This document shows, piece after piece, positions 33,890 to 55,837 of a stretch of 64,000 nt of DNA (its first letter is position 1; the number at the start of each line of letters is the position of its first letter). The position numbers and the translations under genes were made by a program. Source of the DNA: Lucinisca nassula (lineage: Eukaryota > Mollusca > Bivalvia > Lucinida > Lucinidae); contig OY757017.1 of NCBI GenBank assembly GCA_963580285.1, positions 110,331,245 through 110,395,244 on the forward strand. The letters run 5' to 3'. The notes under the pieces are model-generated. The model was not told the origin of the DNA and ran no database searches. It saw only the letters and a program-made list of their open reading frames with translations.

Positions 33890-34065
33890 GGAATGGGAAC
33901 ACCTGGCATATTTTTCCGCCATTTTTCAAAGGGAGACAACTTTCGGGACTTCCTGTTCGCTTTTCTATAAGCCCTGTCCCACTGAAAAATGGAAATAGAG
34001 TTGACCCCTATTGACATGGGAGACAAAAATACTTTTGCAGGAGTTGCCTCCCCTGAAGGTGTTGT
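33890..34065. mobile_element. ~200-bp MITE copy (AAGGGGAATGGG-ended family)
   Basis: An inverted relative of 23630-23845, with shared TTTTTCAAAGGGAGACAACT. It lies directly beside the poly(T)-headed SINE at 34085. Confidence 0.5.
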
Positions 34066-34084
34066 TTTTTTTTTTTTTTTTTTT

Positions 34085-34313
34085 TTTTGGTTTTACGGCC
34101 GTTTCAAGATTATTTCACTCATATCGATCGAGCCGATCGTTAATCAGAGGTTGGCGAAAACCGGAGTACCCGGAGAAAAACCACCTGACCTTCCGTTGCA
34201 GAACTTGGCGTCTCACATGTGACCCGAGCGACGCTCGAACCACAGCGGCGAGAGACCCAATGATCAAGAATCAGCGCTCTTAACCACTGGGCCACAAAGG
34301 CTAAATAAGACCA
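34085..34313 (-). repeat. tRNA-derived SINE with poly(A) tail
   Basis: Read on the minus strand, the head is GCCTTTGTGGCCCAGTGGTT followed by a B-box-like GGTTCGAGCGTCG, and the element ends in a ~20-base A tract (T tract at 34065-34088). Same family as the copy inside the Polinton at 45697-45916. Confidence 0.8.
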
Positions 34314-36253: not shown

Positions 36254-36259
36254 GTTGTT
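36254..36259. repeat. Left target-site duplication of the Polinton (GTTGTT)
   Basis: A 6-bp copy adjoins the AG-starting terminus. The same six bases follow the right terminus (55832-55837). Polinton integrases make 6-bp duplications. The site lies in a short GTT microsatellite, so the exact copy is ambiguous by register. Confidence 0.8.
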
Positions 36260-36851
36260 AGTAGTAGGGGGGTCACTTGGGCATCATGGACTGCGCATGC
36301 GCAGCATTTGTATCACTTCCGGTGAAACGTAAGCGAAACGATGACGAAACTACCCTAAATATCGGACGAGTGTTCGAATGACGTAAATTACCGTAATTAC
36401 GCCGTAAGTATCCTAAATTTTGAGGCGAAAGATGTTCCTGCGGATTGGCAAAGTTCGCCGTCCCTGATCAGGTCGGGGGTGATCGGGGTCTACCCCGTTC
36501 GCTCGAGCGATCCTATCCCAATATTTAGGGAGATACTACCCTGTATAGTATCGATGAAATTAATTCTCTCACCCGCAAACCAATTATCGCCTCGAAAACC
36601 GGGAAAACAATGGAAGGTGTTGGAAGAGCTCGACTCGATGCGAGAAACTAGTAATGGACCGCGTCCCGGAAAAAAAAAGTTTGGTTCGTTCGATTTTAGG
36701 TTTAACGTCCCCGTCAACGCCGTATAGGTCATTTTGGGGGACGTTGCTTCCAGTCGCGCGAGACCTTTTCCGGACATATCTACAACATTTGTATCTCGGA
36801 GAATCTTTCTCGGCTACGGAATTTATACGGATATCGCGGGGGCGTAGCCAG
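36260..36851 (+). repeat. Left terminal inverted repeat of the Polinton
   Basis: It pairs with 55232-55831. It starts AGTAGTAGGGGGGTCACTTG, includes GCGCATGC, and ends at GCGTAGCCAG just before an A tract. Within it, 36676-36780 contains the same module as the tail of the SINE-like dispersed repeat (TTTAACGTCCCCGTCAACGC and GACGTTGCTTCCA). A few small differences from the right TIR, for example around 36638-36655, suggest the two ends have diverged since insertion. Confidence 0.92.
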
Positions 36852-36984
36852 AGCAAAAAAAAAAAAAAAAAAAAAAGTATTGATCAATACAGAGCGAGTT
36901 TGGTCATGTCTAAATTATCTCATCTGATTGGTTGGAGCAATGAGTTAAACCTTTCTGCGTGCTGGTCAAGACCTCAGTTTCAAA

Positions 36985-37293
36985 ATGAATTCGTGTTGTA
37001 AAGTGTCAAACCACGCGATAGAAAAACATCTTTACTCCGAGAGTATGGAAGCTTCTGTCTTTTCAAATAGACGTGTCATGTTTGATAGTATCAAGAAGTG
37101 TTTGGATAAACCTGACAAAAAGAACGTGCGCGGTAAAAGGCTCGAACTCATAAAAACCTTTACTTTTGACATAGGAATTTTGGGATACAGCAGACGAACA
37201 AGCAACACCATTAAAGTCGTGTGTACTCAAACCAGGAGAAAAACGCTTGTCATAACCGCTTATCCGATAGTAACATTCATCGAACGTGTTTAG
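36985..37293 (+). CDS. Small basic protein, possible EndoU/BECR-like RNase fold (102 aa)
   Basis: First gene inside the left TIR. The C-terminal half (about residues 55-102) reads FTFDIGILGYSRRTSNTIKV and then KTLVITAYPI, a beta-rich pattern resembling the 'KVV...ITAYP' strands of BECR-fold ribonucleases (EndoU/Barnase-like). The N-terminal half is helical and basic, with His11, Lys and Arg residues. The protein ends at Val102, 105 bp before the next ATG. The similarity is a visual impression only and no active site can be claimed. It could equally be a lineage-specific DNA-binding or regulatory protein. An inverted CCAAT (ATTGG) lies at about 36923, upstream of the start. Confidence 0.55.
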   Translation: MNSCCKVSNHAIEKHLYSESMEASVFSNRRVMFDSIKKCLDKPDKKNVRGKRLELIKTFTFDIGILGYSRRTSNTIKVVCTQTRRKTLVITAYPIVTFIERV

Positions 37294-37327
37294 ACACGTT
37301 GTATCCAATCAGCGACAGCCGTGAAAG

Positions 37328-37398
37328 AACCAATCGGATTGTACCGCATAAGTATATATACCTCGTTCGCGCGGTACTGTGTCATTCAATAAGGAAAC
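37328..37398 (+). promoter_or_regulatory. TATA/Inr core promoter of the PC4-like gene
   Basis: TATATATA at 37353-37360 is followed 31 bp later by an initiator-like TCATTC (A at 37384), then the ATG at 37399. CCAAT boxes lie at about 37304 and 37330. Spacing matches a canonical RNA polymerase II core promoter. It is notable because the element encodes its own TBP. Confidence 0.65.
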
Positions 37399-37890
37399 AT
37401 GGCAAACTACAGATGTCGGTTCAGTCTCGGGAATGATCGTTACGTGGAAGTGCACGAATGGAAGGGCGAGTTACGGGTCGATATCAGGGAGTGGAAAGAC
37501 GATAAACCGACTAAGAAAGGAATCAGTCTAAACTTGATGCGGTGGAAGAATTGGCTCGATCAGTTGGAATACGTGGATAAGGCATTAGAAAAGAAACAGG
37601 TCTATAGATGTCATCTCGGAGGGAACGTATTCTGTAAGATCGGCGAAAATAGTGTCTGCGTAGATATAAGACAATACTGGAAACCACGGGACGAAGTTGT
37701 ACCAACGAAAACGGGAATATGCTTGAGGCCATCGGAATTCAATCGTTTGAAAGACTTGTTATCAGAAATAGGAAATACATTGCCCGAACTCAACCCAGTG
37801 GTCCCTTGCTTTCTGCAAAGTGACCATTTGAATCAGTTGGGAGCTTTACAGTGCTCAGAGTGCAATCCGAACGATTACCAAAACTGGTGA
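37399..37890 (+). CDS. Tandem PC4-like ssDNA-binding transcription coactivator (163 aa)
   Basis: The protein contains two consecutive copies of the PC4/Sub1 fold. Copy 1 (about 3-64) has the core FSLGNDRYVEVHEWKGELRV-DIREW and the helix-leading phrase KKGISLNLMRWKNWL. Copy 2 (about 68-132) has GGNVFCKIGENSVCVDIRQY and TKTGICLRPSEFNRLKDLL. In the PC4 family this is a four-strand sheet plus helix that dimerises to bind single-stranded DNA and assists RNA polymerase II initiation; two copies in one chain could form the dimer internally. A short Cys-containing tail (CSECNPNDYQNW) follows. PC4-like genes recur in Polinton-type elements. ATG context (AAACATGG) is good and a TATA/Inr promoter is immediately upstream. 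Likely roles: replication (ssDNA cover) or transcription with the element's TBP. Confidence 0.85.
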   Translation: MANYRCRFSLGNDRYVEVHEWKGELRVDIREWKDDKPTKKGISLNLMRWKNWLDQLEYVDKALEKKQVYRCHLGGNVFCKIGENSVCVDIRQYWKPRDEVVPTKTGICLRPSEFNRLKDLLSEIGNTLPELNPVVPCFLQSDHLNQLGALQCSECNPNDYQNW

Positions 37891-38007
37891 AGACAGTGAC
37901 ACGAACGAAAGTAAATTGTCATAAACACGAAACAGACGTATACAACGCGTCATAATTATGGAGCATGATTGCGAATACGTGACAGAATATAGAGTGATAG
38001 ACCCCAA

Positions 38008-38187
38008 ATGACAAATATAAATATGTTTGGTATGGCAATGATGACTTTGGCGTTGTTGGATGAACTGTTGTTATGGCTGAGGTGTTTTCAATTACGACGG
38101 GAAGCCAGGGAGGCTGCGGAGCGCTTTATAGAAGCGTTTGAGAGACACGATGACGATGTATCGCACTTATATAGCGTTATATTGTAA
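38008..38187 (+). CDS. Small hydrophobic ORF, candidate membrane protein (59 aa)
   Basis: ATG at 38008, TAA at 38185-38187. Residues 6-28 (MFGMAMMTLALLDELLLWLRCF) are hydrophobic and could span a membrane. The rest is a charged amphipathic helix (QLRREAREAAERFIEAFERH) followed by DDDVSHLYSVIL. It sits in an otherwise gene-free 460-bp gap between the PC4-like and integrase genes, on the same strand. Polintons often have small hydrophobic ORFs, but no family is recognised here, so the ORF could be chance. Confidence 0.4.
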   Translation: MTNINMFGMAMMTLALLDELLLWLRCFQLRREAREAAERFIEAFERHDDDVSHLYSVIL

Positions 38188-38352
38188 ATTACATGCATAC
38201 TTTTTGAATATTTGTTTCAAACTTTATATATCCATTGTTTCCACGTGACACAGTATACACACTTGTTTTCATCGTTTTGTATCCTATAGGTTTAGTATCG
38301 TTTTATAGTTTTGTAAGAATATTCGTTTGCCATAGTCTTCGTTAAAATAAAG

Positions 38353-39477
38353 ATGACTGACTGGAAGCAATATTTATCTTCCTTGTATTTTAATCCCAAA
38401 TCCCCAGGCAGTTACCTAGGGCCGGAGAAACTGTACCAGATCGTCAAAACTCAATGCCAATTTAAAATTGGCAGGCACCGCATACGCAAATGGCTGCAAG
38501 ACCAGGAGTCGTATTCCCTGACTAGAGGCGCCAGACGTAAATATACCCGGTCTAGGGTAATTGTGGCTGGCATTGACAGTCAGTGGGATATGGATCTGAT
38601 GGATATGGTTGACATTTCCAAACAGAATGACGACTATCGATACGTACTGGTCTCCATAGACATTTTCTCTCGTTTTGCTCATTGCCGGCCCGTAAAAAGT
38701 AAAAAAGGGGTCGATATTGTCACAGCCCTACAAGTCATTCTTAAAGGACCGAGAAAACCTAACACGATTAGGACTGACCGAGGTATGGAATTCCGTAGTA
38801 AAGAGGTCAATACATATTTAAAAAACAAAAACATCCATCATTTTTACGCCCTGAATACGGAGACCAAAGCAAATTACAGCGAACGGTTAATCAAGACTTT
38901 AAAACATAAGTTGTTTAGGTATATGATGAAAAATAGAACGCAGCGGTATGTCGACATTCTTCAAGATGTAGTTCACAGCTATAATCAAACCGTACATAGA
39001 AGTCTCGGTCAACCCCCGGCTTCCATTTCAAAGGAAAACGAAGGTGAAAGTAGGCTGCAGCAGTATTTATTGAGACAGGCCGGGGACAAATCGAAAAAAA
39101 GAAGCAAACGGAAAACCAAAAAGCAGTACAAATTTAAACTCGGTCAAACGGTACGCATATCGCACGTGAGAACTTTATTCGATAGAGAATATTCGCAAAA
39201 ATGGACTGGCGAAATATTTAAAGTCAGCTCGCGTTTTAGAAGAGAGGGTATCCCGGTTTATAGGCTCGAATCCTGGGATGACGAAAAAGTGGAAGGTACC
39301 TTTTATGAACAGGAACTTCAGAAGATTCGCGTGGACGATTCTACCGAATATTACATCCAAGAGATATTAAAAAGACGCGTCCGAAACAAGCGAAAAGAAG
39401 TTCTCGTTCGCTGGTTGCACTGGCCCAAGAAATATGACAGCTGGATTCCGGAAGAAGACGTGAAAGACTACTCGTAG
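38353..39477 (+). CDS. Retroviral-type (DDE) integrase with C-terminal chromodomain (374 aa)
   Basis: It inserts the linear element DNA into the host genome. The N-terminal part (1-60) has the LYQIVKTQ...KIGRHRIRKWL region, which in Polinton integrases precedes the core. The rve core spans about 70-235: first catalytic Asp in WDMDLMDM (D81), second in RTDRGMEF (D142), Glu in NYSERLIKTLK (E177), the last two 35 positions apart. A basic linker (KSKKRSKRKTKKQYK) leads to an SH3-like strand region (about 260-320), then a chromodomain at 330-372 with YYIQEILKRR and VRWLHWPKKYDSWIPEEDV, likely to read histone marks for target choice. Full length and intact. It lies alone with 160 bp upstream and 78 bp downstream spacers; a TATATAT at about 38223 might serve as its TATA box. 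Confidence 0.96.
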   Translation: MTDWKQYLSSLYFNPKSPGSYLGPEKLYQIVKTQCQFKIGRHRIRKWLQDQESYSLTRGARRKYTRSRVIVAGIDSQWDMDLMDMVDISKQNDDYRYVLVSIDIFSRFAHCRPVKSKKGVDIVTALQVILKGPRKPNTIRTDRGMEFRSKEVNTYLKNKNIHHFYALNTETKANYSERLIKTLKHKLFRYMMKNRTQRYVDILQDVVHSYNQTVHRSLGQPPASISKENEGESRLQQYLLRQAGDKSKKRSKRKTKKQYKFKLGQTVRISHVRTLFDREYSQKWTGEIFKVSSRFRREGIPVYRLESWDDEKVEGTFYEQELQKIRVDDSTEYYIQEILKRRVRNKRKEVLVRWLHWPKKYDSWIPEEDVKDYS

Positions 39478-39555
39478 TCAGAAATCACGTGAATTTATGT
39501 CGGACAAAATAGACATACACACCAATTCGTATTCATTGTTTGACAAGACGCCAAG

Positions 39556-40083
39556 ATGAAAATTACCAACGTGGTATATAGCGCCCAATTAAATTGTCCG
39601 ATCGACCTGATAGAATTATGTCAACGTATATGGAACGCTCGATATGACCCGAGATCTTTTCCAGGTCTTATATGGCAGCATAGAACTATCGGTGGCAACT
39701 GCCTCGTGTTTTCCAGTGGTGCTATCAACTGCAATGGAAGAGCCTCAGACGTAGAAGAGGGACGGAAACGTTTGCGCAGATATGCCAGACAGCTTCAAAC
39801 ACTAGGTTATCCCGCCAGCCTAGGAACGGTTAGGATGTTGACAGCGTCTGCCAGTCACTCTCTTAGCGCTGAATTGGACTTAAAGGCGTTGGCTGAGGAA
39901 AGAAGTGTAGTGTACGAGCCAGAGTTGTTTCCGGCTCTAAATTTCAAAATAGATGGCGTAAATTTTTGCTGCTTTCATACCGGTAAAGTGGTAATCACGG
40001 GTATCAAATTTATGAATCAAATGGATGACGTGGTTTTACCAACACTGATCGAGCTTGAGCTCAATACTCGTAAGAAGCAGTGA
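39556..40083 (+). CDS. TATA-box-binding protein (TBP) homologue encoded by the Polinton (175 aa)
   Basis: The whole chain is the saddle-shaped TBP core, with two pseudo-repeats (about 1-88 and 91-172). Repeat 1 shows NARYDPRSFPGLIWQ, LVFSSGAINCNGRAS and RRYARQLQTLGYPASL. Repeat 2 shows YEPELFPALNFKI and CFHTGKVVITGIK. All four phenylalanines that kink DNA in TBP are present: F35 and F52 in repeat 1 (17 apart, as in cellular TBP), F125 and F140 in repeat 2 (15 apart, a two-residue loop shortening). Cellular TBP has an N-terminal extension, absent here. Repeat 2's first strand (TVRMLTASASHSLS) is diverged. It presumably nominates promoters of the element or redirects host Pol II. It sits between the integrase and the capsid cluster; 22 bp separate it from the next ORF. 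Codon usage and absence of introns argue for a resident element gene, not a recent host capture. TBP is known in large DNA viruses; I do not know it as a described Polinton gene. Confidence 0.93.
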   Translation: MKITNVVYSAQLNCPIDLIELCQRIWNARYDPRSFPGLIWQHRTIGGNCLVFSSGAINCNGRASDVEEGRKRLRRYARQLQTLGYPASLGTVRMLTASASHSLSAELDLKALAEERSVVYEPELFPALNFKIDGVNFCCFHTGKVVITGIKFMNQMDDVVLPTLIELELNTRKKQ

Positions 40084-40104
40084 CAAGAAACGCCGACTAA
40101 AATC

Positions 40105-40452
40105 ATGGAACATTCCAAAGTTCTCCGTTCCATTCGCTATTTAGCGACCTTGAGAGATGCCTTACCCGTGGATCGTAGAACCCTGTTACGAAATATTACT
40201 CGATTGCAAATGTCATCCATTAGAGAGGTAGCCAAAAGACTGACCAACGGAACGATCAATCCTCTAAGAAGGGATGCAAGACTCTTCGAAAGGAGAAGGC
40301 TCGCGCTAAGAACGTTAGGGTCGAATAGAGTTAGTTTCCAGAGAAAGAAAGCATTGGTAAACAGACATTCGTCGTTCATTCCGTCTATGCTGAGAAGCGT
40401 TTACCTGATACAAACCATCGTGGACGAGATCCGAACCACCGCAGAAACATGA
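40105..40452 (+). CDS. Small very basic virion-type protein, paralogue A (115 aa)
   Basis: An Arg-rich helical protein with the pattern LLRNITRLQMSSIREVAKRL, then LFERRRLALRTLGSNRV and QRKKALVNRHSSFIPSML. The same framework (LLR-ITR-Q, I--A, ERR-L--LG, KKA, FI---L) is present in the 107-aa protein on the opposite strand at 43187-43510, so the two are paralogues. Short basic proteins of this style recur in Polinton/adintovirus genomes and are suspected core or cement proteins; the precise homologue is not certain. Its TGA overlaps the next ATG (ATGA, 40449-40452). Confidence 0.75.
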   Translation: MEHSKVLRSIRYLATLRDALPVDRRTLLRNITRLQMSSIREVAKRLTNGTINPLRRDARLFERRRLALRTLGSNRVSFQRKKALVNRHSSFIPSMLRSVYLIQTIVDEIRTTAET

Positions 40453-40895
40453 CAGATTTTTACGCTTATCTCAGTAGCAAAGACTCTTTGGATTTACGTA
40501 AGAACAACAACCCTTCCGACTTTTGGATCCAATTTCATAAAACCTATAATCTGGACGGTCACTGGGTGTGCGCTCTCAAACAGATATCTTTGACGTTAAA
40601 ATTTACGCCTAGATCAAAAAGAATATATCTCTGTTGCGATATCGTGGAGGAATCCTACGTAAGAAACAGAACTATACCGGTGTTGAGAAATATCGAGATC
40701 GACAACAGATATAAAAAACTCAAATCTGACAGGTTTGAAGACGCCATCTATCTTCCCGTAAACGTGTCAAACTTGACCGCCCTCAGATTATATCTACTAG
40801 ACGAGGATTTACAACCCGTCACTTTCGATTCGAACGATCTGCATTGCGTGTTACATTTTAAACAAAATGGGCTCAGTCGAAGTGTACGATATTAA
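40449..40895 (+). CDS. Minor capsid (penton-like, single jelly-roll) protein (148 aa)
   Basis: The N-terminus FYAYLSSKDSLDLRKNNNPS-DF followed by LDGHWVCALKQISL has the 'short polar lead, NxxSxF, L-G-WevaL-ei' signature of Polinton minor capsid proteins, which form the pentons at the virion vertices. The chain is beta-strand rich, ending with FDSNDLHCVLHFKQ, as expected for the last strand of a jelly roll. It is placed, as usual, just upstream of the major capsid gene. The start overlaps the previous stop (ATGA), and the last 29 nt overlap the next gene in another frame. The assignment rests on motif style and gene order. Confidence 0.75.
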   Translation: MTDFYAYLSSKDSLDLRKNNNPSDFWIQFHKTYNLDGHWVCALKQISLTLKFTPRSKRIYLCCDIVEESYVRNRTIPVLRNIEIDNRYKKLKSDRFEDAIYLPVNVSNLTALRLYLLDEDLQPVTFDSNDLHCVLHFKQNGLSRSVRY

Positions 40896-41214
40896 ATCGC
40901 AAAAATGGGTCCCCTATATACCAGACTATGACAAATGGTACCAACATTTTAAAGACTTGAGCGACGGGTACGTTCAGCCCGATCACCTCGGTCGTTACGT
41001 GGTGGGCGTAGGTGAAAGAAACAGAAAATTGAAAGAAAGTCAAAGACCCGTGGTAAAATTGGTCAGCCCGGTCGCTCAAGCGGTAGAGATGGCCAAATCC
41101 GACATAGAACGTAAGAAAGAAGGTGGTAAGAAGCGTAAGAAGGGAACGGTTGCCAGAAAAGCATTACCCAAAGAATTTAAACGATACGCTTACAACCCGG
41201 AAGATCAAGTTTAA
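40867..41214 (+). CDS. Conserved basic virion-associated protein upstream of the capsid gene (115 aa)
   Basis: Residues 1-60 contain VEVYDIKSQKWVPYIPDYDKWYQHFKD, LSDGYVQPDHLGRYVVG and so on. The middle has PVVKLVSPVAQAVEMAKSDI, and the C-terminus is Lys-rich (KKEGGKKRKKGT) with a final KALPKEFKRYAYNPEDQV. A 'W--HF-D---G---PD--GR--VG' head with a 'VKLV(S/T)P--QAVE-AKS' helix recurs beside the capsid gene in Polinton-like elements. A role in virion assembly or DNA packing is inferred from position and basic charge. It overlaps the minor capsid gene by 29 nt and is 8 nt from the major capsid start. Confidence 0.7.
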   Translation: MGSVEVYDIKSQKWVPYIPDYDKWYQHFKDLSDGYVQPDHLGRYVVGVGERNRKLKESQRPVVKLVSPVAQAVEMAKSDIERKKEGGKKRKKGTVARKALPKEFKRYAYNPEDQV

Positions 41215-41222
41215 CGAACGAA

Positions 41223-42460
41223 ATGGACAATTGTCATCAAGAAAGTTTATCGTTATTTTCATTGCCTCCATCAGATACAGCTTTTCAGTCTAGAGAATGG
41301 ATCGAATATCGACCTTCAAATCAAGTCACTTCCACCTCAGCGATAGATTTCAACATTCCTCCTCAGTCATCCGCTTACGTCGATCTCAAACACAGCGTGT
41401 TAAACGTGAAACTGCGCTTGACAGATGCTCAAGGTGTTCCGGTAAAAGAGGACCGATCTCTCGGACTGATAAACCTTCCATTGCACACGATATTTAGACA
41501 GGTAGACGTCACGTTTCAGCAGACATCGCTGTCTCATATCGGAACTAATTACGCTTACAAAAGCTATATAGATACAATTCTTAAAACCAATCAAGCCACG
41601 CAGGAAAATATACTGTCCAGTCAGCTATTTTATAAAGATACGAGATATAACCCAGACGCGGCAAATGCCAGGTTTGGCGGTAACGCGGGACTTTTCGAAA
41701 GATACCTCGCAACGAAAGACGGGAAAATTGTGGATCTGGAAGGCCCATTATTCCTCGATCTGTTTCAACAGCCAAGACTGTTGGTGAATGGCGTCAGTAT
41801 TGGGATCAAATTGTGGCCGAGTCAGGACGCTTTCAGACTGATGTCCGACAGTCCAGATCCCGACGAAAAAGTTCAGATCTTGGATGTTAGATTTAAACTA
41901 TGCGTACAGCGTTTAAATGGAGGAGTTTTAGTAGCTCACGAAAAACTCTTTCAAGATCAACCCGCCCTCTACCCGTATCTACGATCAGAGATAAAGACTG
42001 CCTCCATAGCCCCAGGACAGTACGGATTCAGTGCTGACGACATTTTTCAAGGCCTCGTTCCGAGCAAACTCGTGGTAGGACTGGTGTCTAGCGCGGCGTA
42101 CACCGGCGATTACAAGAAAAACCCGCTAAACTTTCAATCGTTTGACTGCAGTTCGGTAGGGTTGTACGTCGATGGACAGTCATACCCCTCTCAGCCTTTG
42201 CAACCCAATTACAGCGCCGATCAGTTTGTCGACTGTTACAGAACTTTGACGCTCTTCAGAAAAGATATTAACGTGAGTAGAGGCGATTACAAAAACGGAT
42301 ACTGCCTCTATGTACTAGACGTAGATCCTTACTATACGTTCAACACTAAAAGAAAAGGTCATTGTCGGCTGGAACTCAAGTTCGCGACACCCTTGTCATG
42401 TACGCTACATTTCCGGAAATTCTCCACATAAACCAAGCCAGATCCGTGTACTTAAAATGA
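41223..42460 (+). CDS. Major capsid protein (hexon-like double jelly roll), frameshifted at its 3' end
   Basis: The open frame from the ATG at 41223 runs 402 codons to a TAA at 42429-42431. It shows the Polinton capsid hallmarks: an N-terminal SREWIEYRPS...FNIPP, a NLPLHTIFRQVDVTFQQ strand, TNYAYKSYIDTIL, LFLDLFQQPRLLVNGVSIGI and, near the end, GYCLYVLDVDPYYTFNTKR. The last ~15 codons are out of frame. From about 42398 another frame encodes the conserved capsid tail (YATFPEILHI...), ending at a TGA at 42458-42460 that overlaps the protease ATG as ATGA. A one-base-type indel between about 42385 and 42398 therefore separates the body from its tail. It could be a real disabling mutation, a sequencing error or, less likely, a programmed shift. 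Coordinates include the displaced tail. Confidence 0.93.
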
Positions 42461-42870
42461 ATAACCTTCAACTACAAAGTATGCTAAGAGGGTACCCAGT
42501 CAGAATTTGTTCAGTCGATAATGTTAAAAAAGAGAGATTCGTGATCGCCAATACGGACAAAAGCGGTGGACCGGGCAAGCATTGGGTTGCATTTTACTTT
42601 AATGAAAGTGGACACGACGAATTCTTTGATTCTCTCGGTAACACAGCGGAGTACTATAATTTTGGACACGTATTACGGAAACCGTATTTAAGGAACAGAA
42701 ATCGCTTACAAGACTTTGGTTCTGATACGTGTGGACAGTACTGTATATATTATGTCGTGTGCCGATATGTCGGAATGTCATTGAAAGATATCGTAAACGC
42801 GATTAGCGTGAGAGATTTAGAGATGAATGATAGATTTGTGAGAACATTTGTAAATACAACGCAACTATAA
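42457..42870 (+). CDS. Adenain-like cysteine protease (137 aa)
   Basis: This is the maturation protease of the virion (Ulp1/adenain superfamily). Catalytic layout: His42 in GKHWVAFYF, acidic Asp58 in EFFDSLGN, oxyanion Gln85 and nucleophile Cys92 in DFGSDTCGQYCIYYV. The Gln-to-Cys distance of 7 equals that in adenovirus protease. Slightly shorter than adenovirus adenain (~204 aa) but typical of Polintons. Its ATG overlaps the stop of the shifted capsid tail. Last gene of the rightward block; AATAAA follows at 42895. Confidence 0.93.
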   Translation: MNNLQLQSMLRGYPVRICSVDNVKKERFVIANTDKSGGPGKHWVAFYFNESGHDEFFDSLGNTAEYYNFGHVLRKPYLRNRNRLQDFGSDTCGQYCIYYVVCRYVGMSLKDIVNAISVRDLEMNDRFVRTFVNTTQL

Positions 42871-42886
42871 TGTAGTTTTACATCGC

Positions 42887-42900
42887 TTTATTTCAATAAA
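42887..42900. terminator. Bidirectional poly(A) signal between convergent blocks
   Basis: TTTATT at 42887-42892 (AATAAA on the minus strand) is directly followed by AATAAA at 42895-42900 on the plus strand. Both gene blocks end within 40 bp: the protease at 42870 and the 84-aa protein at 42930. One compact 3'-end module appears to serve both. Confidence 0.75.
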
Positions 42901-42929
42901 ACTTTTATAACAAAAATATTGTCTTTGTT

Positions 42930-43184
42930 TTAAAATGATATCCAGTCCACGAATTTATCAGTCTTTGCTTTTTCTGCCTTTTTCTCCCGTTTCCCCGGGG
43001 GTGGAGGCGCGAACACGGTTTGGCTCTTTGGCTCGGTCTTCTTTCTCTTCACCATAGCGGGGGATGGTTTAGTTTCCACCTTTTGCGAGTGAGAAGATGG
43101 CGTTTGCCTTTCTACGGAAGGCTCTCCTTTAACATTCAACATCCTTCGGTATTTATCGTAGGGGACAAGTACTAGCTTTTCCAT
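42930..43184 (-). CDS. Small basic protein, MEKLVLVPYDKY-type (84 aa)
   Basis: The N-terminus KLVLVPYDKYRRML is followed by a Pro/Ser/Lys-rich, probably disordered middle (KRKKTEPKSQ, FAPPPPGKREKKAEKAK) and ends FVDWISF. A 'LVPYDKY' start on a short basic protein is frequent in Polinton/adintovirus genomes, where such proteins are suspected virion core or maturation-peptide precursors; the exact family is not certain. Adjacent genes on the same strand are only 2 bp (43187) and 30 bp apart. Confidence 0.7.
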   Translation of the reverse strand: MEKLVLVPYDKYRRMLNVKGEPSVERQTPSSHSQKVETKPSPAMVKRKKTEPKSQTVFAPPPPGKREKKAEKAKTDKFVDWISF

Positions 43185-43186
43185 CT

Positions 43187-43510
43187 CTATTTGAGTACTG
43201 CTTCTAAGTAAGGTATGACTATTTTCAGCAGAGTGAAAATGAAACGTTGTTTATCCGAAACGGCCTTTTTCTTGTGATGATAACCAACGGTTCTATCTCC
43301 CAACAGGTGTAAAAGGCGTCTCTCGCGTTTAAGCGCTTTTTTCTGTGCCGAGGTCAACTTTATCTTGCATTTCACGACGTTATGCGCTATCTGACTTATC
43401 GCTCTCAGTTGCTGTCTGGTAATCGTTCGCAGTAGTACCTTGCGTTGACCCGGTGTAGTTTGGGCAAATAAAAGCAAAAAGTGACGTTCTTGTACGAGTA
43501 GCTGAACCAT
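43187..43510 (-). CDS. Small very basic virion-type protein, paralogue B (107 aa)
   Basis: Helical and basic: LLRTITRQQLRAISQIAHNV, LTSAQKKALKRERRLLHLLG, then HHKKKAVSDKQRFIFTLL. This is the more typical member of the family ('--Q-(R/K)-LL-T-(T/S)--QL-AI-EIAHN(V/L)'), with paralogue A at 40105-40452 on the other strand. A DNA-condensing or capsid-cement role is suspected from charge and from Polinton context, not shown. Confidence 0.75.
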   Translation of the reverse strand: MVQLLVQERHFLLLFAQTTPGQRKVLLRTITRQQLRAISQIAHNVVKCKIKLTSAQKKALKRERRLLHLLGDRTVGYHHKKKAVSDKQRFIFTLLKIVIPYLEAVLK

Positions 43511-43539
43511 GGTTCCTCTTGTAGGTCTGTTTCTTGTTC

Positions 43540-44196
43540 TTACGTCAGTCGATAAACCACGGGGTCTTCATCCGGGAATATGCGAGTTCTAAGACGATAT
43601 CTGTTGTCAGCATGAGGACTCATATCTACCACAAAATAGCCGTGTTTTTCGGTGCTGAGAGCATCTTCGTACGCTCGTAAGAATCCTTTCGATTTCCCGG
43701 GATGCAGCTGGCGTCCTAGAATTGCGACTTGAGACGCATCTCGTAGATTTTTCAGAAGCACCATATACCACGTGTTTAAAGCTATCGTTCTGGCGTGTTT
43801 ACCTCCCGGATATAAGTTCTGAGTTATCAGTATCACGCTGACGCATTTGTGATGGGTCCCTTGCGTAAATAATAATTCCATGTCTTTGTTGCTCATAACT
43901 TGGTGCATTAGATCATCGATGACGATAAGCTTATGACGCTTGTCTTTGGTAAACTCGTCAATTTCTTCGGTAGAGGGTAGACCCCGTTTACTATAAAAAT
44001 TGGGTATCGTCCGTTCCATGTCGTCGAAGAGATCTTGGTGTATGCCGTAGCAGTATAATACGTGGGTAGGTGGTTCTCTCGTATACATGTATTGCAAATT
44101 ATTCAGGAACTTGTACACCCACCTCGTTTTACCGCTACCCGTTTGACCACTGATACACATGCTAGAGCAAGGTTCGAAAGGCAGGGTACAGCTCAT
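43540..44196 (-). CDS. FtsK/HerA-type genome-packaging ATPase (218 aa)
   Basis: It pumps element DNA into the capsid. Walker A is CISGQTGSGKTRWV (about residues 14-27), Walker B is KLIVIDDLM (about 87-95), and a sensor-like strand VILITQN follows (about 119-125). The overall length of ~218 aa and the order P-loop, IDDLM, TQN match Polinton/NCLDV-type packaging ATPases. The ATG (44196) overlaps the TGA of the upstream membrane-protein gene as ATGA. Intact. Confidence 0.95.
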   Translation of the reverse strand: MSCTLPFEPCSSMCISGQTGSGKTRWVYKFLNNLQYMYTREPPTHVLYCYGIHQDLFDDMERTIPNFYSKRGLPSTEEIDEFTKDKRHKLIVIDDLMHQVMSNKDMELLFTQGTHHKCVSVILITQNLYPGGKHARTIALNTWYMVLLKNLRDASQVAILGRQLHPGKSKGFLRAYEDALSTEKHGYFVVDMSPHADNRYRLRTRIFPDEDPVVYRLT

Positions 44197-44471
44197 TTTT
44201 TAAGTTTTGGGCTGGGTAAGGCGTAACCTATGCAACTACTCAGGAGGCTTATCCAAAGCTCGGTAGATCCGTTTTGTAAAGACAAATTAACTATAGAGGT
44301 GATGATGATGACGTATACAATGATCATCTGGCAAAAGTAGACTATTTCCGCTTTAGGTATACGGGCACCTAACAAGTGCCACCTCTCCGAATTTGATCGA
44401 TTTTCTTCATCTGATCTGGGTTCATAAATAAATGCTTCCCTTTCGGGTTGATGGGGCTCGTTTGTTTCCAT
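44193..44471 (-). CDS. Conserved membrane protein upstream of the packaging ATPase (92 aa)
   Basis: A polar N-terminus (EREAFIYEPRSDEENRSNSE) leads to a transmembrane segment at about 42-62 (IVYFCQMIIVYVIIITSIVN) and a second hydrophobic segment at about 70-86 (ELWISLLSSCIGYALP), ending PSPKLKK. The 'SIVNLSL-...-LW--LLSSC-GY-LP-PK' pattern is recurrent in Polinton-like elements next to the ATPase. Function unknown; a virion or host-membrane role is possible. First gene of a tight leftward unit. Confidence 0.8.
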   Translation of the reverse strand: METNEPHQPEREAFIYEPRSDEENRSNSERWHLLGARIPKAEIVYFCQMIIVYVIIITSIVNLSLQNGSTELWISLLSSCIGYALPSPKLKK

Positions 44472-46358
44472 ATTCTTACGAGGGGAGTGAAATGAAAATG
44501 AAGAATGTCTGTTCTTACTAACATTTATTTGTTAGCAGTTAACTAGTGACGTATATTACAAGGATAGAAATGAAGCATTGGAACGCTTCGATTTATACAT
44601 TTTTCATAAATACATAGTAAATAAAAAAGTCATATGTTAACAATTGTTATATAACTTACTCATGTTTTCATGTAACAAAGATGTAACTGAGTAACAACGA
44701 GATATCCATACCATATACGGTAAATATGTTCTATAAGCAAGGCCTACACCACAGAACTGAAAAAACATGGAGTGCACATAACTTCTGGGCCAGACTAGCT
44801 AGTTTCGGCCAATTTGGCCTCATCAATCCTGTTTTAGTGACCACGTCTATTAAGCAAGCAATCTGTCTTAAGCAAGCAGGCGTTTGTTTTCCAAACGGGG
44901 TAAACGCAATAAATTTCACCTGTATTAAGCAATCGCCTGTCTTAAGCAAACACATTTCGGTAATCCTTTAAATGTTTGCTTAGTACGGGTTGGACTGTAC
45001 TGCATACAATGGAAAAAAAAATCACTTCAACGAAAAACGAAACGGGTTGATGCAAGAAATTGTTACGACCGTGACAAAACATGAAACAGTCTGTTCAAAA
45101 ATCGAAACGTGTCCTATGGTAAAACGCGTGTTAAACAACAAAAATACGAACGGTAGTTACAAAAATGTGAACGGTAAATTACAAAAATCAAAACGCCTCT
45201 GGTACGTTTCCAGAGTGGCTGTTACCAAATATCAAAATCATTCCAAATAATATAAACACTAATAGTCGTATAACTTATATAACTGAAATATACTTTTAAG
45301 AAAAGTGTCAATAAAACCATTGACGATCGAACGTCATCACCAGTGACAGTAACAGCACATTGTAAATATCGCATTCTGAATGCAACAATACCGAGATGAT
45401 ATCGACGAAAAATGAGAAGCTTAATACAAGATATTGAAACGACGTTAACAAAAGTTGAAACGGCCTGATGTGGTAAATGCAATAAATTCCACCCGTATCA
45501 AGAAATTGCCTGTCTAAAGCAACAGCATTTCGATAATCTCTTAAGTGCTTGCTTAATACGGGTCGGACTGTACTCTATACAATACAAACAACCACATCAA
45601 CGAAAAACGAAACGGGTTTGTGCAAGAAATTGAGTCGACCTTGACAAAACATAAAACAGTTTGTTCAAAAATCGAAAAGTGTCCTTTTTTTTTTTTTGGT
45701 TCGGGTTTTACGGCCCTTTCAAGATTATTTCACTCATATCGAGCCAATCGTTAATCATAGGTGGGCGAAAACCGGAGTACCCGGAGAAAAACAACCTGAC
45801 CTTCCGTTGCAGAACTTGGCGTCTCACATGTGTCCCGAGCGAGGCTCGAACCCACGGCAATGAGAGACCTAATGATCAAGAGTCAGCGCTCTTATCCATT
45901 AGGCCACGGAGGCCCGTTCGAAAAGTGTCCTAACACAGTAACATAACGCATTGTAAATATAACATTCTGAATGTAACAATACCGAAGTGTTATCGACGAA
46001 AAATGAGAAGCTTAATACAAGATATTGAAACGACAGTAAAATAAAACTTCTATTGTATCGATTGTAAATAATGATGTACAAAAATAAAACATTCTGAATG
46101 CAACAATACCGAAATATATCGACGAAAAATGAGAAGCTTAATACAAGATATTGAAACGACAGTAAAAAAAAAAACTTCTATTGTATCGATTGTAAATAAT
46201 GATGTACAAAAATGAAAACGTGTTCTACGGTAAAATAGGTGTAAACGTGCAAAAATAACAACGACTGTGACACAAATATAAACATTAATTACAAAAATCT
46301 AAACAGCTCTCACACATTTCCAGCACACCTAACGCAAAAATCAAAACGACCCTTTCTT
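44472..46358. repeat. 1.9-kb spacer with a ~600-bp imperfect tandem duplication and shorter repeats
   Basis: 44850-45440 resembles 45471-46035 (shared GTACGGGTTGGACTGTACT-like, AACGAAACGGG and TGCAAGAAATTG blocks). A ~70-bp subunit with ATATCGACGAAAAATGAGAAG recurs at about 45371, 45963 and 46089. A SINE has entered the second copy (45697-45916). At 46038-46080 and 46163-46210 lies a ~40-bp sequence that also occurs in the PolB coding region in opposite orientation (50100-50143). No ORF in this region is credible. Confidence 0.7.
45674..45931 (-). repeat. tRNA-derived SINE inserted in the Polinton, with target duplication
   Basis: The SINE body is 45697-45916 on the minus strand (head GGCCTCCGTGGCCTAATGGA, B-box-like GGTTCGAGCCTCG, poly(A) end near 45685). 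TCGAAAAGTGTCCT stands on both sides (about 45672 and 45917). Sister copies are at 34085-34313 and 13443-13628. The insertion post-dates the local 600-bp duplication, since only one of the two units carries it. Confidence 0.85.
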
Positions 46359-49300
46359 TTAAAAGCCAAAAGGTACAGTGTCATAGTTTTCCAAACGTCT
46401 TCGTTTGGTATAAACCATTTGATAAGTTTTTTCTTCTTTACGATTTATCAATATTCTTTTTCGTTTTTCCCTGCAAATTTTGTTTGGATTAGACACCGTG
46501 ATATTCGGACAACTTTGAGGACTGGTTACTATTCGTTTGACACTGTCAAAATTTATTAATTGAGAATTAGTGTAATTCAAAGTGAATCCTCTGATTTTAC
46601 AAATTTCTTTTTTAGTGTTAGTTTTGTAGGCGTAATTTTTTGGCCCCCCAGACACAAACTCTACAATGTGCTCCCCAGTTTGCAATTCATCCGTGAGTTC
46701 GCCCAGGTAGTCTCCCAGGGGAGGGTCATACTGACCGGGACGGCTCACGTAAATAACGCTGTCCGTATCGTAATACAGGACCCGTCTGTCTAACTGTTCT
46801 AGTACACTGTAAAGTTTGAGTCTGGCCCAGCACGTCGTAAATGTAGCCAAATAGATGTTTGTCTTGTTGTCTTCTGGCTGACAATCTTTTTTATATAACC
46901 ATTCGATTTGTACGGTGTCATTGGTCAAGATGTGAAAATTAAGAGGTTGTTTCATTGGATCGGTGAATAGCTGGAAGAATAAATTTGCTTCCGTTTCGTG
47001 GAAAAATTCTGACTGGCGCATATTTAGCCTCTGTCCAAACTTGCCCCAAAAACTGTTGAGGCATAATTTGGCCAGTTGCCTCAGTCCGGGGTTCTTTACG
47101 ATGTTTTCCCGATTCAAAGAAACGCCCTCTTTTTCGAAATACTGCGAAATGTAGCGTTCCATGTCGTTTTCGTTTTGGATCCAGTCAGGGGGACCGCTGG
47201 CTTCTTGTTTAAACTTGAGGAACGTGTTAATATACTGAGCGAACAGTCCCCCTTCTCTGGTTTCAGGGTCGTATTGGGTCGTTTTCTCCCAGTGGTAAAC
47301 TTCGTATATTTTGGACAGAGTGTACCCTAGTCTAATAGCCGTTTCAATCTCCGGAGTACACCACGTGCCAGTCAACTCTCTTTCCTGATCCGAACAAGCG
47401 CAATGATTTTGGTTTTCGGTATCCGCGCAGGTCCTACATAAAGGAAATTTCAGCTTGCCATTGGACCTATAAGGTAGCACAGGGTGGTACAACCCTCTAG
47501 GAGGGAGTATCTTGACCTTGGCAATGCCGAAATAGTCCTTTATGTCCCCAAAGTCTTTCGTGATGATAGCGGGGTGACCTACGGGATAGCGACTGTACTT
47601 ATTCACCCAAGGGTACAGACTGGTGAAATCGACATATTTAACGCGTTCGTTTTCGGACGTTTTGTAGTAGAGTTGACTCGCATTGGTGCGACCCCCGAAG
47701 AAACTATCTCTAGGATCCAGTCTGTCCATTAAATCTAGTTGATTAATGAAATTTTGGAGGTCAGCGTTTTGTTTTTTCATATTTTGAAATTCGTGTTCCC
47801 AAATGCAAACGTATCTCATTCCTAACCGTTCTATATATGCCTTCTTTTTCATGGTCAATGCAAACAATTCTTTAACAGATTGGTTGGTGAGTGGATGGTA
47901 CGTGTCTTCCCTGTTTTCCGAGAAGCATTCAACACAGCCATGAAACAGACACCCTTGATATTCGTAGGCGGTGTTTGTTTCAGCGCAATATCCGTCCAAC
48001 TTGTATCGGGTGCCTGGTAAGGTTTTTTCGCCAGTATTCAAAGCGTGTTGAATGCGGACATTGTCGACACGCGACATCCACTCCAACCACTGTATGGACG
48101 TTTTACTATATTGATCGTTGTAACCACCGGGAGGGATTTTCGCGATAGGCGTGCTTACGAACTCTTTCGCACCCACTCTCACCCCTTTCAGTTCGGATTC
48201 GTGGACCCATTTGTCGCTTCGGAAAATGAATAGTTTCCCGTCAGACATTTTGGCGGGAATCCATTCATTTTGCCCTTCTATTTTCACCTTCCACTCCTCT
48301 TCAATAAACTTTGTTCTGAAAACGTTCATGCATACCGATGCAATTGTAATTGAGTCAAATGGGTCCACGGCCCCGTCCCATTTCTTTTCTAATTTATCTC
48401 TATCATTCATGACACCCGTAGCATTCATCAACAACTCTCTAAATTTCAAACACGCCTTTCTCAATATATCAACATCGCTACGACAATACTCTAACATTTC
48501 TTTTCTAAAATCAAATACGTCATCCTTTCTATCATTCAACCACTCTAACAATTCCTTTCTCTCTTTCTCACCCATGAAATTGTGTCCGTAATATTTCGCA
48601 TCCGGGTATGGTCCCACATAATTTTGATTCTCTAAAGTATTAAAATAATGTGGGAACCATCCCTTCTTCAACTCTGTCAGTCCAAACGCATCGGGTAATG
48701 ACGACAATTTCATGGGCAAGAAGTTGAGACTGTCAATCACCTTGATATGTAAATCTCGCTCCACCGTCATGTACATTATTTTCGAACCGCTATAAATGAT
48801 TTTATCGGGCCGCATGGATTGGTCTATGAGGTACTCTAACAAAAAGTAACCATCATAGCCTTTCATGTTGTGGGCAATGACTTTAAAGTATTTATGATGG
48901 TCGGAAAACAACCATTCGCCAAACTTTTCTGCGGTATCCGCTCCTCGAAAAGTGACCTCCCGAAAACCGCATTTACCGGGACAAGGACCATCGTCTTCGT
49001 TGTCATCACATTCCGGGCAACGGGTACCGCATTTTTCGCAAACAGATTTCGGGGTCAAAGGATCATTAATACAATTGGGGCATACGGAATGAGCCACGAC
49101 AAAGTTTGGCCGATGTGTGGCTTTTCCGCACCACGAGGCGTTACAATGGCGACATTTGGAGCAAGATTTACATAACTGTTCCGATTGACAGTCTTTACAA
49201 TCATTCTTTTTCAAGGGCTGATAATTCTCACACTCCGCTCTCTCATCCTGGCTACATTCGAAATCGGCGAAAATATATTTTGGAATGAATTCTTCCTTTG

Positions 49301-50630
49301 CCGATGTAGATCTTAAATAACATAGATGATCGTCCATCACATACTTGTGACAAGAGGAACACAGATGTTCACCGCATTGGTGTTCCTCTGTCTTCCTCTT
49401 GTCTTTACGAATAACTTTATAACACGCGGGACACTTCCAGTATTTATCGCACTGGGAAGGCCCGCGCGGTTGCCCCTTAGATTTACCTTTTTCATAAACC
49501 GGTACTTGTTTATGCTGCTCGTAACACGCGTCAGACCGACAGTGCATGTTACAGTCAGGACAAGTGACCGGTTTATCGGTTTTGGGGCAATCGTCTGTCT
49601 TACATACTATACAAAACATATCACAATGGTGCTTTTCCCTATCATTAAAATGTTTCAAACAGGTCTGACAAAAGTAGACACTGCAAAAGAAACCGGTAAT
49701 CGAAGTGATTGAATGAAAGTGGTCATCGTCTACTTGGTAAACGTATACGCAAGGCCGGTCATCGGTGCTGGGACTAGTAATAAACTTATTACCGAGCCTT
49801 GCGCTGACCACCATCACCCTCACTCCGAGTACCGATTCAAATGCCGCTAAATCGTTCAAGCTAGCAGGTCTGTCAAGAGGTACTTCGGCCAGCTGGCTAA
49901 TGGCTACTGCCAAATCCGTTTGCTCGTGCCTGTCTTTGGCACGAAGCTGTTTGAAGAAGCTTTCGGGCACTTTCCTATAATGCAAAATGAGTTCGCGATT
50001 GCTTTTCTTCCCTCTGGTTTTAGAAATTTCTGCCCACTCTTCGGGCGTGCATCGGTTTAATTTAGCCCAGCTGACCGAAATGGCTCTTGCCAGACACAAC
50101 TGATCATTATTTACAATCGATACAATAGAAGTTTTTATTTTACATGCATTTTTCTCGCCTTTTAGATTCGTGATCCTTTTTCGGGCACCTCCCTTGGGTA
50201 GATCGACGGAACCGATTAAGATGTCGAAACTGTCATCAACGGATAAGTTTTTATTACTGTTGAGGACATTTTCGATGGTTTCCATGACCATGTTCGCGTT
50301 GATGTCGTCCCAGGGCTGTAGGGGAACTACGATAGGATCGTGCAATCCTTCGTGTTGAATGATCACGCGACCTAAATCGTTTCCCGCTAACGCGCCCCGG
50401 GCTTCATTCAACACTCGGTCGAACATCTCATGCAAACCATCTCTGATGTCCTCCAGTCTTTCTCCGTGATGCTGTTCGTCAATCTTAACCTGGTATCCGC
50501 GATCTACCGCTGCATTTTTGGCGTACGTCCTTCTCGATTTCTCTCTAATTTCGTACTTCAGTCCATTGGCTGGTGGTGGGGTGTCGGGTTTGTGAGATGG
50601 TCCCGGCTGAGGCTCATCCCCTCTTCCTAC
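46359..50630 (-). CDS. Protein-primed DNA polymerase B (PolB), exon 5 of 5, main coding exon
   Basis: It replicates the element from protein-primed ends. With exons 1-4 (53517-53663, 52770-52832, 52213-52275, 51915-51977) the protein is 1,535 aa; numbers below are for that chain. The exon begins at GTA (50628-50630) after TAATTACAG|; a naive ORF starts later, at a TTG. N-terminal Polinton-type region about 280-425 with DNDQLCLARAI-like sequence; Cys/His zinc-ribbon array about 430-550 and again 580-665, inserted inside the exonuclease. Exo I FADFEC (D568, E570), Exo II AHNMKGYDGYF (N700, D705), Exo III YCRSDVDIL (D831). A Vsr/PD-(D/E)XK-like insert at about 985-1060 (KLDGY...AYEYQGCLFHGC...IWEHEF). 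Polymerase A VDFTSLYP (D1113), B KLCLNSFWGKFG, C YYDTDS (D1400, D1402). All catalytic residues are intact; basic C-terminus. Confidence 0.95.
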   Translation of the reverse strand, partial: VGRGDEPQPGPSHKPDTPPPANGLKYEIREKSRRTYAKNAAVDRGYQVKIDEQHHGERLEDIRDGLHEMFDRVLNEARGALAGNDLGRVIIQHEGLHDPIVVPLQPWDDINANMVMETIENVLNSNKNLSVDDSFDILIGSVDLPKGGARKRITNLKGEKNACKIKTSIVSIVNNDQLCLARAISVSWAKLNRCTPEEWAEISKTRGKKSNRELILHYRKVPESFFKQLRAKDRHEQTDLAVAISQLAEVPLDRPASLNDLAAFESVLGVRVMVVSARLGNKFITSPSTDDRPCVYVYQVDDDHFHSITSITGFFCSVYFCQTCLKHFNDREKHHCDMFCIVCKTDDCPKTDKPVTCPDCNMHCRSDACYEQHKQVPVYEKGKSKGQPRGPSQCDKYWKCPACYKVIRKDKRKTEEHQCGEHLCSSCHKYVMDDHLCYLRSTSAKEEFIPKYIFADFECSQDERAECENYQPLKKNDCKDCQSEQLCKSCSKCRHCNASWCGKATHRPNFVVAHSVCPNCINDPLTPKSVCEKCGTRCPECDDNEDDGPCPGKCGFREVTFRGADTAEKFGEWLFSDHHKYFKVIAHNMKGYDGYFLLEYLIDQSMRPDKIIYSGSKIMYMTVERDLHIKVIDSLNFLPMKLSSLPDAFGLTELKKGWFPHYFNTLENQNYVGPYPDAKYYGHNFMGEKERKELLEWLNDRKDDVFDFRKEMLEYCRSDVDILRKACLKFRELLMNATGVMNDRDKLEKKWDGAVDPFDSITIASVCMNVFRTKFIEEEWKVKIEGQNEWIPAKMSDGKLFIFRSDKWVHESELKGVRVGAKEFVSTPIAKIPPGGYNDQYSKTSIQWLEWMSRVDNVRIQHALNTGEKTLPGTRYKLDGYCAETNTAYEYQGCLFHGCVECFSENREDTYHPLTNQSVKELFALTMKKKAYIERLGMRYVCIWEHEFQNMKKQNADLQNFINQLDLMDRLDPRDSFFGGRTNASQLYYKTSENERVKYVDFTSLYPWVNKYSRYPVGHPAIITKDFGDIKDYFGIAKVKILPPRGLYHPVLPYRSNGKLKFPLCRTCADTENQNHCACSDQERELTGTWCTPEIETAIRLGYTLSKIYEVYHWEKTTQYDPETREGGLFAQYINTFLKFKQEASGPPDWIQNENDMERYISQYFEKEGVSLNRENIVKNPGLRQLAKLCLNSFWGKFGQRLNMRQSEFFHETEANLFFQLFTDPMKQPLNFHILTNDTVQIEWLYKKDCQPEDNKTNIYLATFTTCWARLKLYSVLEQLDRRVLYYDTDSVIYVSRPGQYDPPLGDYLGELTDELQTGEHIVEFVSGGPKNYAYKTNTKKEICKIRGFTLNYTNSQLINFDSVKRIVTSPQSCPNITVSNPNKICREKRKRILINRKEEKTYQMVYTKRRRLENYDTVPFGF

Positions 50631-50633
50631 CTG

Positions 50634-50977
50634 TAATTATAAAAATAATAATCGTAATAGTAATAATAATAGTTATTATAACAATAATTAAAGCGATAAT
50701 AATAATGATAATAATAACAATGACAAAACAACAACAACAACAACGTCTCCTACTTCTACTCCTACTTTTACAGCTACAATTACCACTCCTGCAACTACTT
50801 CTACTACTACTACTACTCCTACTCCAACTACTACTACTACTACTACTGCTCATTCTAATATTTCGACTACTGTTAATAAAAATAATAACAATAACAAAAT
50901 ATTAAGAATAATACTGGTTATAAATAATAATAATAATAATAACAATGATGATAATAAAAGAACAACAACGTTAACTG

Positions 50978-51008
<31 letters not shown>

Positions 51009-55231: not shown

Positions 55232-55831
55232 ACTGGCTACGCCCCCGCGATATCCGTATAAATTCCGTAGCCTAGAAAGATTCTCCGAGATACAAATGTT
55301 GTAGATATGTCCGGTAAAGGTCTCGCGCGACTGGAAGCAACGTCCCCAAAATGATCTATACGGCGTTGACGGGGACGTGAAACCTCAAATCGAACGAACC
55401 AAACTTTTTTTTTCCGGGACGCGGTCCATTCTTCGTAATCGAAGTTCATCGAGTCGAGCTCTTCCAACACCTTCCATTGTTTCCCGGTTTTCGAGGCGAT
55501 AATTGGTTTGCGGGTGAGAGACTTAATTTCATCAATACTATACGGGGTAGTATCTCCCTAAATATTGGGATAGGAGAGCTCGAGCGAACGGGGTAGACCC
55601 CGATCACCCCCGACCTGATCGGGGACGGCGAACTTTGCCAATCCGCGGGAACATCTTTCGCCTCAAAATTTAGGATACTTACGACGTAATTACGGTAATT
55701 TACGTCATTCGAACACTCGTCCGATATTTAGGGTAGTTTCGTCATCTAATCGTTTCGCTTACGTTTCACCGGAAGTGATACAAATGCTGCGCATGCGCAG
55801 TCCATGATGCCCAAGTGACCCCCTTACTACT
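55232..55831 (-). repeat. Right terminal inverted repeat of the Polinton
   Basis: The reverse complement of 36260-36851, with small differences. It ends ...CCCTTACTACT at 55831 and contains the shared SINE-tail module at 55302-55408. Confidence 0.92.
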
Positions 55832-55837
55832 GTTGTT
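55832..55837. repeat. Right target-site duplication of the Polinton (GTTGTT)
   Basis: It repeats the six bases at 36254-36259. Confidence 0.8.

Follow-up and report, generated by a model that had tools for sequence, protein, structure and literature searches.

A Polinton in the genome of the bivalve Lucinisca nassula that carries its own TATA-binding protein gene

A 64,000-nucleotide stretch of the Lucinisca nassula genome (contig OY757017.1, positions 110,331,245 to 110,395,244 of the forward strand; hereafter, the window) contains a Polinton (Maverick) of ~19 kb whose gene set includes a TATA-binding protein (TBP) gene of its own. Polintons probably stand close to the origin of many eukaryotic DNA viruses and are regarded as relying on the host for transcription. 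We consider it likely, at roughly 65%, that the Polinton TBP binds and bends DNA at promoters of the element and recruits host RNA polymerase II (Pol II) with the help of host TFIIB.

The TBP gene and the element that carries it

A sequence-only reading of the window had aligned a 175-aa open-reading frame (ORF) by eye with the complete TBP saddle and both of its repeats, and this assignment was borne out by profile, by known structures, and by predicted fold. PF00352 matched in two stretches (E = 2.2e-29; 101.6 bits against a gathering score of 22.9), 35 distinct Protein Data Bank (PDB) sequences matched at E ≤ 1 with human TBP as the best (2.3e-21), and the predicted fold is the TBP saddle. 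The four intercalating phenylalanines are all present at the positions given in that reading (F35, F52, F125, and F140), and Phe occupies them in 92, 94, 91, and 77, respectively, of the 95 sequences formed by the window protein (P0001) and its relatives. The protein is a bare TBP core without an N-terminal extension and without the RLLLG motif. Its gene lies inside the terminal inverted repeats (TIRs), 78 bp past the chromodomain integrase ORF and on the strand of its neighbors, with four ORFs, all on the same strand, between it and the protease. The location described earlier, between integrase and capsid genes, therefore stands with respect to the TIRs, the integrase, and the strand; the capsid label of the ORF at 41223-42431 was not confirmed, as there was no usable Pfam or PDB sequence match and the single-sequence fold reached a pLDDT of 29.6, and we treat it as a putative capsid from its position and general likeness, with the fold unconfirmed.

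The element has TIRs, as Polintons do, here of about 0.6 kb each, and a 6-bp duplication, GTTGTT, flanks it, but the surrounding stretch is TTG-rich. The ends of four further copies (on C10, C19, C7, and C15) were compared with those of the window element. The copies on C10, C19, and C7, of 18.4-18.9 kb, have the same tips and the duplications ACAGCT, GGAATC, and CCCAGG, respectively, while only the left tip of the C15 copy was found in the end stretches retrieved, so that a perfect duplication of the 6 bp typical of Polintons is present in the window element and three of the four further copies, different in each. The hallmark Polinton pair of a family B DNA polymerase and an rve integrase is present. 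The plus-strand block comprises the PC4-like gene, the chromodomain integrase, TBP, three small ORFs, the putative capsid, and a protease-like ORF, and the minus-strand block a small ORF, an ATPase-like ORF, a 92-aa ORF, and the polymerase; the protease-like and ATPase-like ORFs are at the expected Polinton places, with profile matches below curated cut-offs.

Copies, selection, and relationship to cellular TBPs

A TBP search of the 2.93-Gb genome gave 225 candidates, of which the best 150, some of them fragments, were scored. The first 90 of these are 90-100% identical, 85 of them without an inner stop, and a further set is 67-75% identical. Over 174 codons, the best 20 loci (L001-L020, including that of the window) differ so little that they amount to 8 distinct sequences at the DNA level and 2 at the protein level, indicating a recent burst. 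For gene order, 8.5 kb of sequence was taken at each of 20 loci out of the 150, 16 of them chosen as divergent: the PC4-like and integrase genes are upstream of TBP in 12, and the putative capsid ORF, whole or in part, is downstream in 17. Eight loci with TBP and later ORFs only (L021, L024, L025, L026, L029, L032, L034, and L035) may be partial, rearranged, or differently arranged elements, and at L036 the segment from TBP to the start of the capsid ORF is tandemly duplicated (1851-2375 and 4001-4525, oriented). Conversely, when the genome was searched with the capsid ORF and the best 103 of 864 candidates were scored (104 rows, one ORF appearing twice, with more distant Polintons outside the count), a same-strand TBP match was found within 6 kb upstream in 91 of the 104 rows and at 1.5-2.5 kb in 86. 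Four of the 13 rows without TBP by this rule are just outside it, on C9, C13, and C7 at 6.4-8.3 kb and on C12 at 2.7 kb, the last a piece picked up by the family search only.

The TBP gene is under purifying selection. When B- and C-type elements are compared, its dS is 0.78 and its dN 0.13, a ratio of 0.17. For the window (A) type against the B type, pS is saturated at 0.74 and pN is 0.14, and six other element genes have pN of 0.10-0.18 in this second comparison. The putative capsid ORF is among the most constrained genes compared. Neither the TBP queries nor the polymerase found a relative in the viral contig collection, and scans of the genome contig collection found none either, so gene order could be checked in the window's own genome only; the search for the same gene at the same position, proposed in the sequence-only reading for other bivalve Polintons, succeeded in divergent elements of this genome.

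The host's own TBP was seen as a pair of exon pieces on C175, separated by 16 kb and 93-94% identical to human TBP, and the window protein matches them at 35-47%. Among 120 animal TBPs, that of the mussel Sinanodonta agrees best with this pair (91 of 93 residues), with a lead of a single residue. It is 31% identical to TBP of the mussel Sinanodonta and 25% to Biomphalaria TBPL1. A protein search returned 150 relatives, of which the 120 listed are 46-99% identical to it; the nearest named ones among those listed are from Mercenaria (68%) and Pinctada (50%), and one is from a Sedimenticola bin, probably through host contamination. A phylogeny, proposed as a check in the sequence-only reading, was built by maximum likelihood from 49 rows (20 Polinton, 16 TBP, 11 TLF, and 2 archaeal-type); in it the Polinton sequences cluster together (100/100), away from all others. 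This group holds at 100/100 when the archaea are removed, a tree in which one animal TBP (Pomacea) moves beside the TLFs (92/82), so that TBP and TLF are not cleanly split there; because the branches are long, the deeper place of the family is unsure. Apparently, the Polinton TBPs are a separate, old branch of the TBP superfamily. The Mercenaria entry named TATA-box-binding protein-like 1 (P0036) groups with them and apart from TBPL1, a caution that the mollusc database entries named TBPL1 include at least one element gene.

The missing intron would suit a recent processed copy of the host gene, carried by accident and functionless, but the host exons are close to human TBP and distant from the window gene, and the separate tree group, the purifying selection, and the 120 listed relatives refute such an origin, to which we give practically no credence. 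This had been named beforehand, together with the lack of any TBP match, as what would overturn the identification, which has instead survived on profile, fold, the 31% identity to mussel TBP, and the same place in divergent elements. Identity with TLF/TRF2 was likewise rejected: the groups are separate at 100/100, F125 is kept in 91 of 95 sequences, and Asn253 is lost. The Polinton TBP resembles TLF/TRF2/TBPL1 in being a diverged TBP paralogue, but in TLFs the second-repeat intercalator is His and Asn253 is kept (107 of 109 each), and the Polinton family is the opposite on both.

DNA-contact surfaces, a candidate promoter box, and proposed function

Residues were compared, in human TBP numbering, among 95 Polinton-family, 120 animal TBP, and 109 TLF sequences. 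Asn163, Asn253, Thr218, and Thr309 are, we assume, the contacts at the center of the TATA box. Asn163 and Thr309 are kept in 91 and 92 of the 95 Polinton TBPs (N5 and T148 in the window). The YEPELFP loop, presumably the TFIIB contact of cellular TBP, is kept, as are the convex-helix residues R74 (89/95), Y76 (94/95), and R78 (94/95). Val255 is replaced by Ser in 90 of 95. Together, the residue and loop comparisons suggest that the family has retained its means of bending DNA and its TFIIB side, and has rebuilt the base-reading center and, probably, the TFIIA side. We infer that the gene is expressed and its product imported into the nucleus, where it would bind DNA with a shifted sequence preference and use YEPELFP for TFIIB; redirection of Pol II by it, with a candidate cis-motif, is plausible.

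Such a motif was sought in 11 upstream regions of the window with 2000 dinucleotide shuffles as control. GTAAGAA was found at -40 of the integrase, -35 of the 40105 ORF, -33 of the 43510 ORF, and -47 of the 44471 ORF (ORFs named by their start), and no 7-mer reached four genes in any shuffle. The B-type copy L022 has it ahead of the first three of these genes as well (-40, -33, and -33), and the 44471 upstream region of L022, retrieved after the motif had been chosen, has it at -47 and -8, the offsets of the A type. Over 36860-44600, 11 copies were observed against 1.5 expected (maximum 5 in 300 shuffles), some of them in lysine-rich coding sequence; those ahead of the capsid ORF are in such sequence and were excluded as evidence. 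When four upstream regions (PC4, integrase, TBP, and 44471 ORF) were compared between A and B for exact blocks of at least 6 at the same offset, the only ones found were TTTGTAAGAA (integrase), GTAAGAA and CGTAAGAAT (44471 ORF), AAATCACGTGA (TBP), and CATTCA (PC4), with an ungapped identity of 44/110 upstream of the integrase and 52/110 upstream of the 44471 ORF. The PC4-like and TBP upstream regions contain CCAAT, TATA-like, or E-box sequences. A splice donor was rejected as the explanation of GTAAGAA, the preceding bases being T, C, C, and A (C at the -8 site) without the usual AG. Our hypothesis is that GTAAGAA is the box of the Polinton TBP; it may instead be that of another factor, for example the paired small ORFs. 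Host machinery would read the PC4-like and TBP genes first, through CCAAT, TATA-like, or E-box promoters, and the element TBP would then serve the GTAAGAA-marked promoters of the integrase and the 40105, 43510, and 44471 ORFs, working at these other promoters together with host TFIIB and Pol II. The full form of this proposal, a private core-promoter code in which the TBP, through its rebuilt central contacts, reads GTAAGAA as cellular TBP reads TATA and thereby turns on integrase and virion genes, is tentative, and we rather doubt it; if true, this would be, to our knowledge, the first transposon with its own general transcription factor and its own promoter box.

Several findings weigh against these readings. 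All 95 Polinton TBPs have Thr or Ser in place of Asn253 (T96 in the window), and 88 of them have Asn or Gln in place of Thr218 (N60); the 120 animal TBPs retain both residues without exception, and of the 109 TLFs 107 retain Asn253 and 95 Thr218. Pairwise programs place a 2-residue gap by position 95, and the match of Asn253 to T96 uses an ungapped alignment with the LG(Y/F)PA and LDL/IRL anchors in register. With these two contacts replaced, the protein may recognize an ordinary TATA box less well or no longer at all, and the window protein, which lacks the canonical N163/N253 and T218/T309 pairing, was assigned to a subfamily of its own. The stirrup of the first repeat, expected to face TFIIA, is rebuilt, with the family motif WQH-x-x-IGGNC where cellular TBP has MRIREPRTTA, and 14 of 95 sequences have His as the F140 intercalator. 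As to the box, the three-gene count of the B type was matched by 23 of 2000 shuffles, GTAAGAA is absent at -28 to -50 of 7 of the 11 window genes, TBP included, one site lies within the end of the TBP coding sequence and another overlaps the stop codon of the ATPase, and a second B copy, L057, has kept the -8 site and lost the -47 site. The early/late split is not clean: a TATA-like hexamer is missing upstream of TBP in the window, and TATATA precedes the B-type integrase at -86. Finally, at 8 of the 20 sampled loci the 4 kb ahead of TBP yielded neither an integrase nor a PC4 gene.

Other roles for the protein were weighed against transcription of the element. It could interfere with the host by holding TFIIB or other TBP partners or by occupying host promoters, lowering host transcription or defence, and the kept TFIIB-loop and convex-helix residues with a rebuilt stirrup would suit a competitor; a pure competitor, however, need not retain all four intercalating Phe or a family-specific DNA face, and the gene sits in the middle of a gene block of the element, so we find this role improbable. 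Slightly less probable is that the fold serves to handle DNA during replication or packaging or to bend the genome. PC4 is known to bind single strands, and the adjoining PC4-like protein might act in replication by binding single strands, just as it could be a transcription coactivator; the second-repeat minor-groove face is also altered (T96, S98). Against this role stand the retained YEPELFP loop and the conserved blocks upstream of element genes. The position of TBP immediately after the integrase gene would fit a guide that holds the integrase at TBP-occupied sites, such as Pol III genes, but no tRNA gene was found in the window (bacterial search settings) and the four target duplications have no evident common motif, making a guide very unlikely.

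Relation to known systems and further features of the element

According to PMC8097293, the commonest end motif of vertebrate Mavericks is AGT and ACT repeated twice, and the window element resembles the Polintons described there in its TIRs, AGTAGT...ACTACT ends, polymerase, integrase, protease-like and ATPase-like genes, and inward, strand-opposed blocks. What sets it apart from them is the presence of a PC4-like gene and of TBP. Neither TATA nor TBP occurs as a word in the main text of PMC8097293 or of the other Polinton papers word-searched, and in papers with both terms, Polinton and TBP, the passages checked concern other viruses or leave the terms unconnected. The suspicion that TBP is an undescribed Polinton gene thus agrees with the open literature searched, which holds no such description and mostly leaves subscription journals outside.

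Herpesviruses offer a working precedent for the proposed mechanism. According to PMC7498053 and PMC8360532, beta- and gammaherpesviruses encode TBP mimics (ORF24 of Kaposi's sarcoma-associated herpesvirus, BcRF1 of Epstein-Barr virus) with which host Pol II transcribes late genes from TATT promoters. These mimics have an N-terminal Pol II-binding domain and RLLLG, unlike the Polinton protein, which is clearly TBP by sequence; by Foldseek it matches a BcRF1 weakly (E = 7.8e-3). TBP occurs in 59% of mirusvirus genomes (PMC10132985), and its presence in large DNA viruses, stated in the sequence-only reading, is reflected in a match to the Heterosigma akashiwo virus TBP (E = 4.6e-11), which shares the fold; those TBPs sit in large genomes, the window TBP in a ~19-kb element. 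With animal TBP it shares the fold, two repeats, intercalating Phe, and TFIIB loop, and it differs in sequence, in the Asn253 and Thr218 replacements, and in its bare core. A Polinton lineage with TBP, and often a PC4-like gene, means that general transcription factors were captured by small integrating elements as well as by giant and herpes viruses, and a compact natural variant with altered central contacts and a candidate matching box makes the DNA choice of TBP directly testable. In the phage collection, the sole TBP match was Halorubrum virus HRTV-9 (L055:492-1031).

Table 1 Features of the window element
Feature	Position	Strand	Evidence or remark
Left target-site duplication, GTTGTT	36254..36259	.	
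Left TIR, starts AGTAGT	36260..36851	+	
PC4/p15-like protein, two PC4 domains	37399..37890	+	PF02229 1.6e-22, two stretches; PDB human PC4 1.7e-8
GTAAGAA	38313..38319	+	40 nt ahead of integrase ATG
Integrase, rve core + chromodomain	38353..39477	+	Pfam, PF00665 3.1e-12
AAATCACGTGA, E-box CACGTG at -70 from TBP ATG	39482..39492	+	same offset kept in B-type element
TBP (P0001), 175 aa, intronless	39556..40083	+	profile, PDB, predicted fold
GTAAGAA	40070..40076	+	35 nt ahead of 40105 ORF, within TBP coding end
115-aa ORF, diverged paralogue of 43187-43510	40105..40452	+	Pfam HVO_A0114 1.3e-3, sub-threshold
148-aa ORF, kept across element subfamilies	40449..40895	+	
115-aa ORF, kept across element subfamilies	40867..41214	+	
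Putative major capsid protein	41223..42431	+	position and general likeness
Adenovirus-type protease	42457..42870	+	PF00770 8e-4, just below curated cut-off
107-aa ORF, paralogue of 40105-40452	43187..43510	-	
GTAAGAA	43537..43543	-	33 nt ahead of 43187-43510 ORF, overlaps ATPase stop codon
Packaging-type ATPase, Pox_A32-like	43540..44196	-	PF04665 3e-4, AAA_22 1.8e-5, both sub-cut-off
92-aa ORF (sE; 44471 ORF)	44193..44471	-	hydrophobic stretch by eye
GTAAGAA	44473..44479	-	8 nt ahead of sE
GTAAGAA	44512..44518	-	47 nt ahead of sE
Family B DNA polymerase, organellar/viral type	46359..50435	-	PF03175 1.9e-48
Right TIR, ends ACTACT	55233..55831	-	
Right target-site duplication, GTTGTT	55832..55837	.	

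The paralogous ORFs at 40105-40452 and 43187-43510, on opposite strands, are diverged to about 30% (tblastn), and the small ORFs gave weak matches in PHROGs and none in NCBIfam. By eye, coding sequence seems to continue ahead of the start listed first for the polymerase ORF, and the gene may begin farther upstream. Inside the element, an array of 6.4 copies of a 162-bp trinucleotide-rich repeat occupies 50831-51868, past the polymerase toward the right end, and the short translated stretches of 34011-34283 and 45661-45933 look alike by eye, which suggests a dispersed repeat with one copy inside the element.
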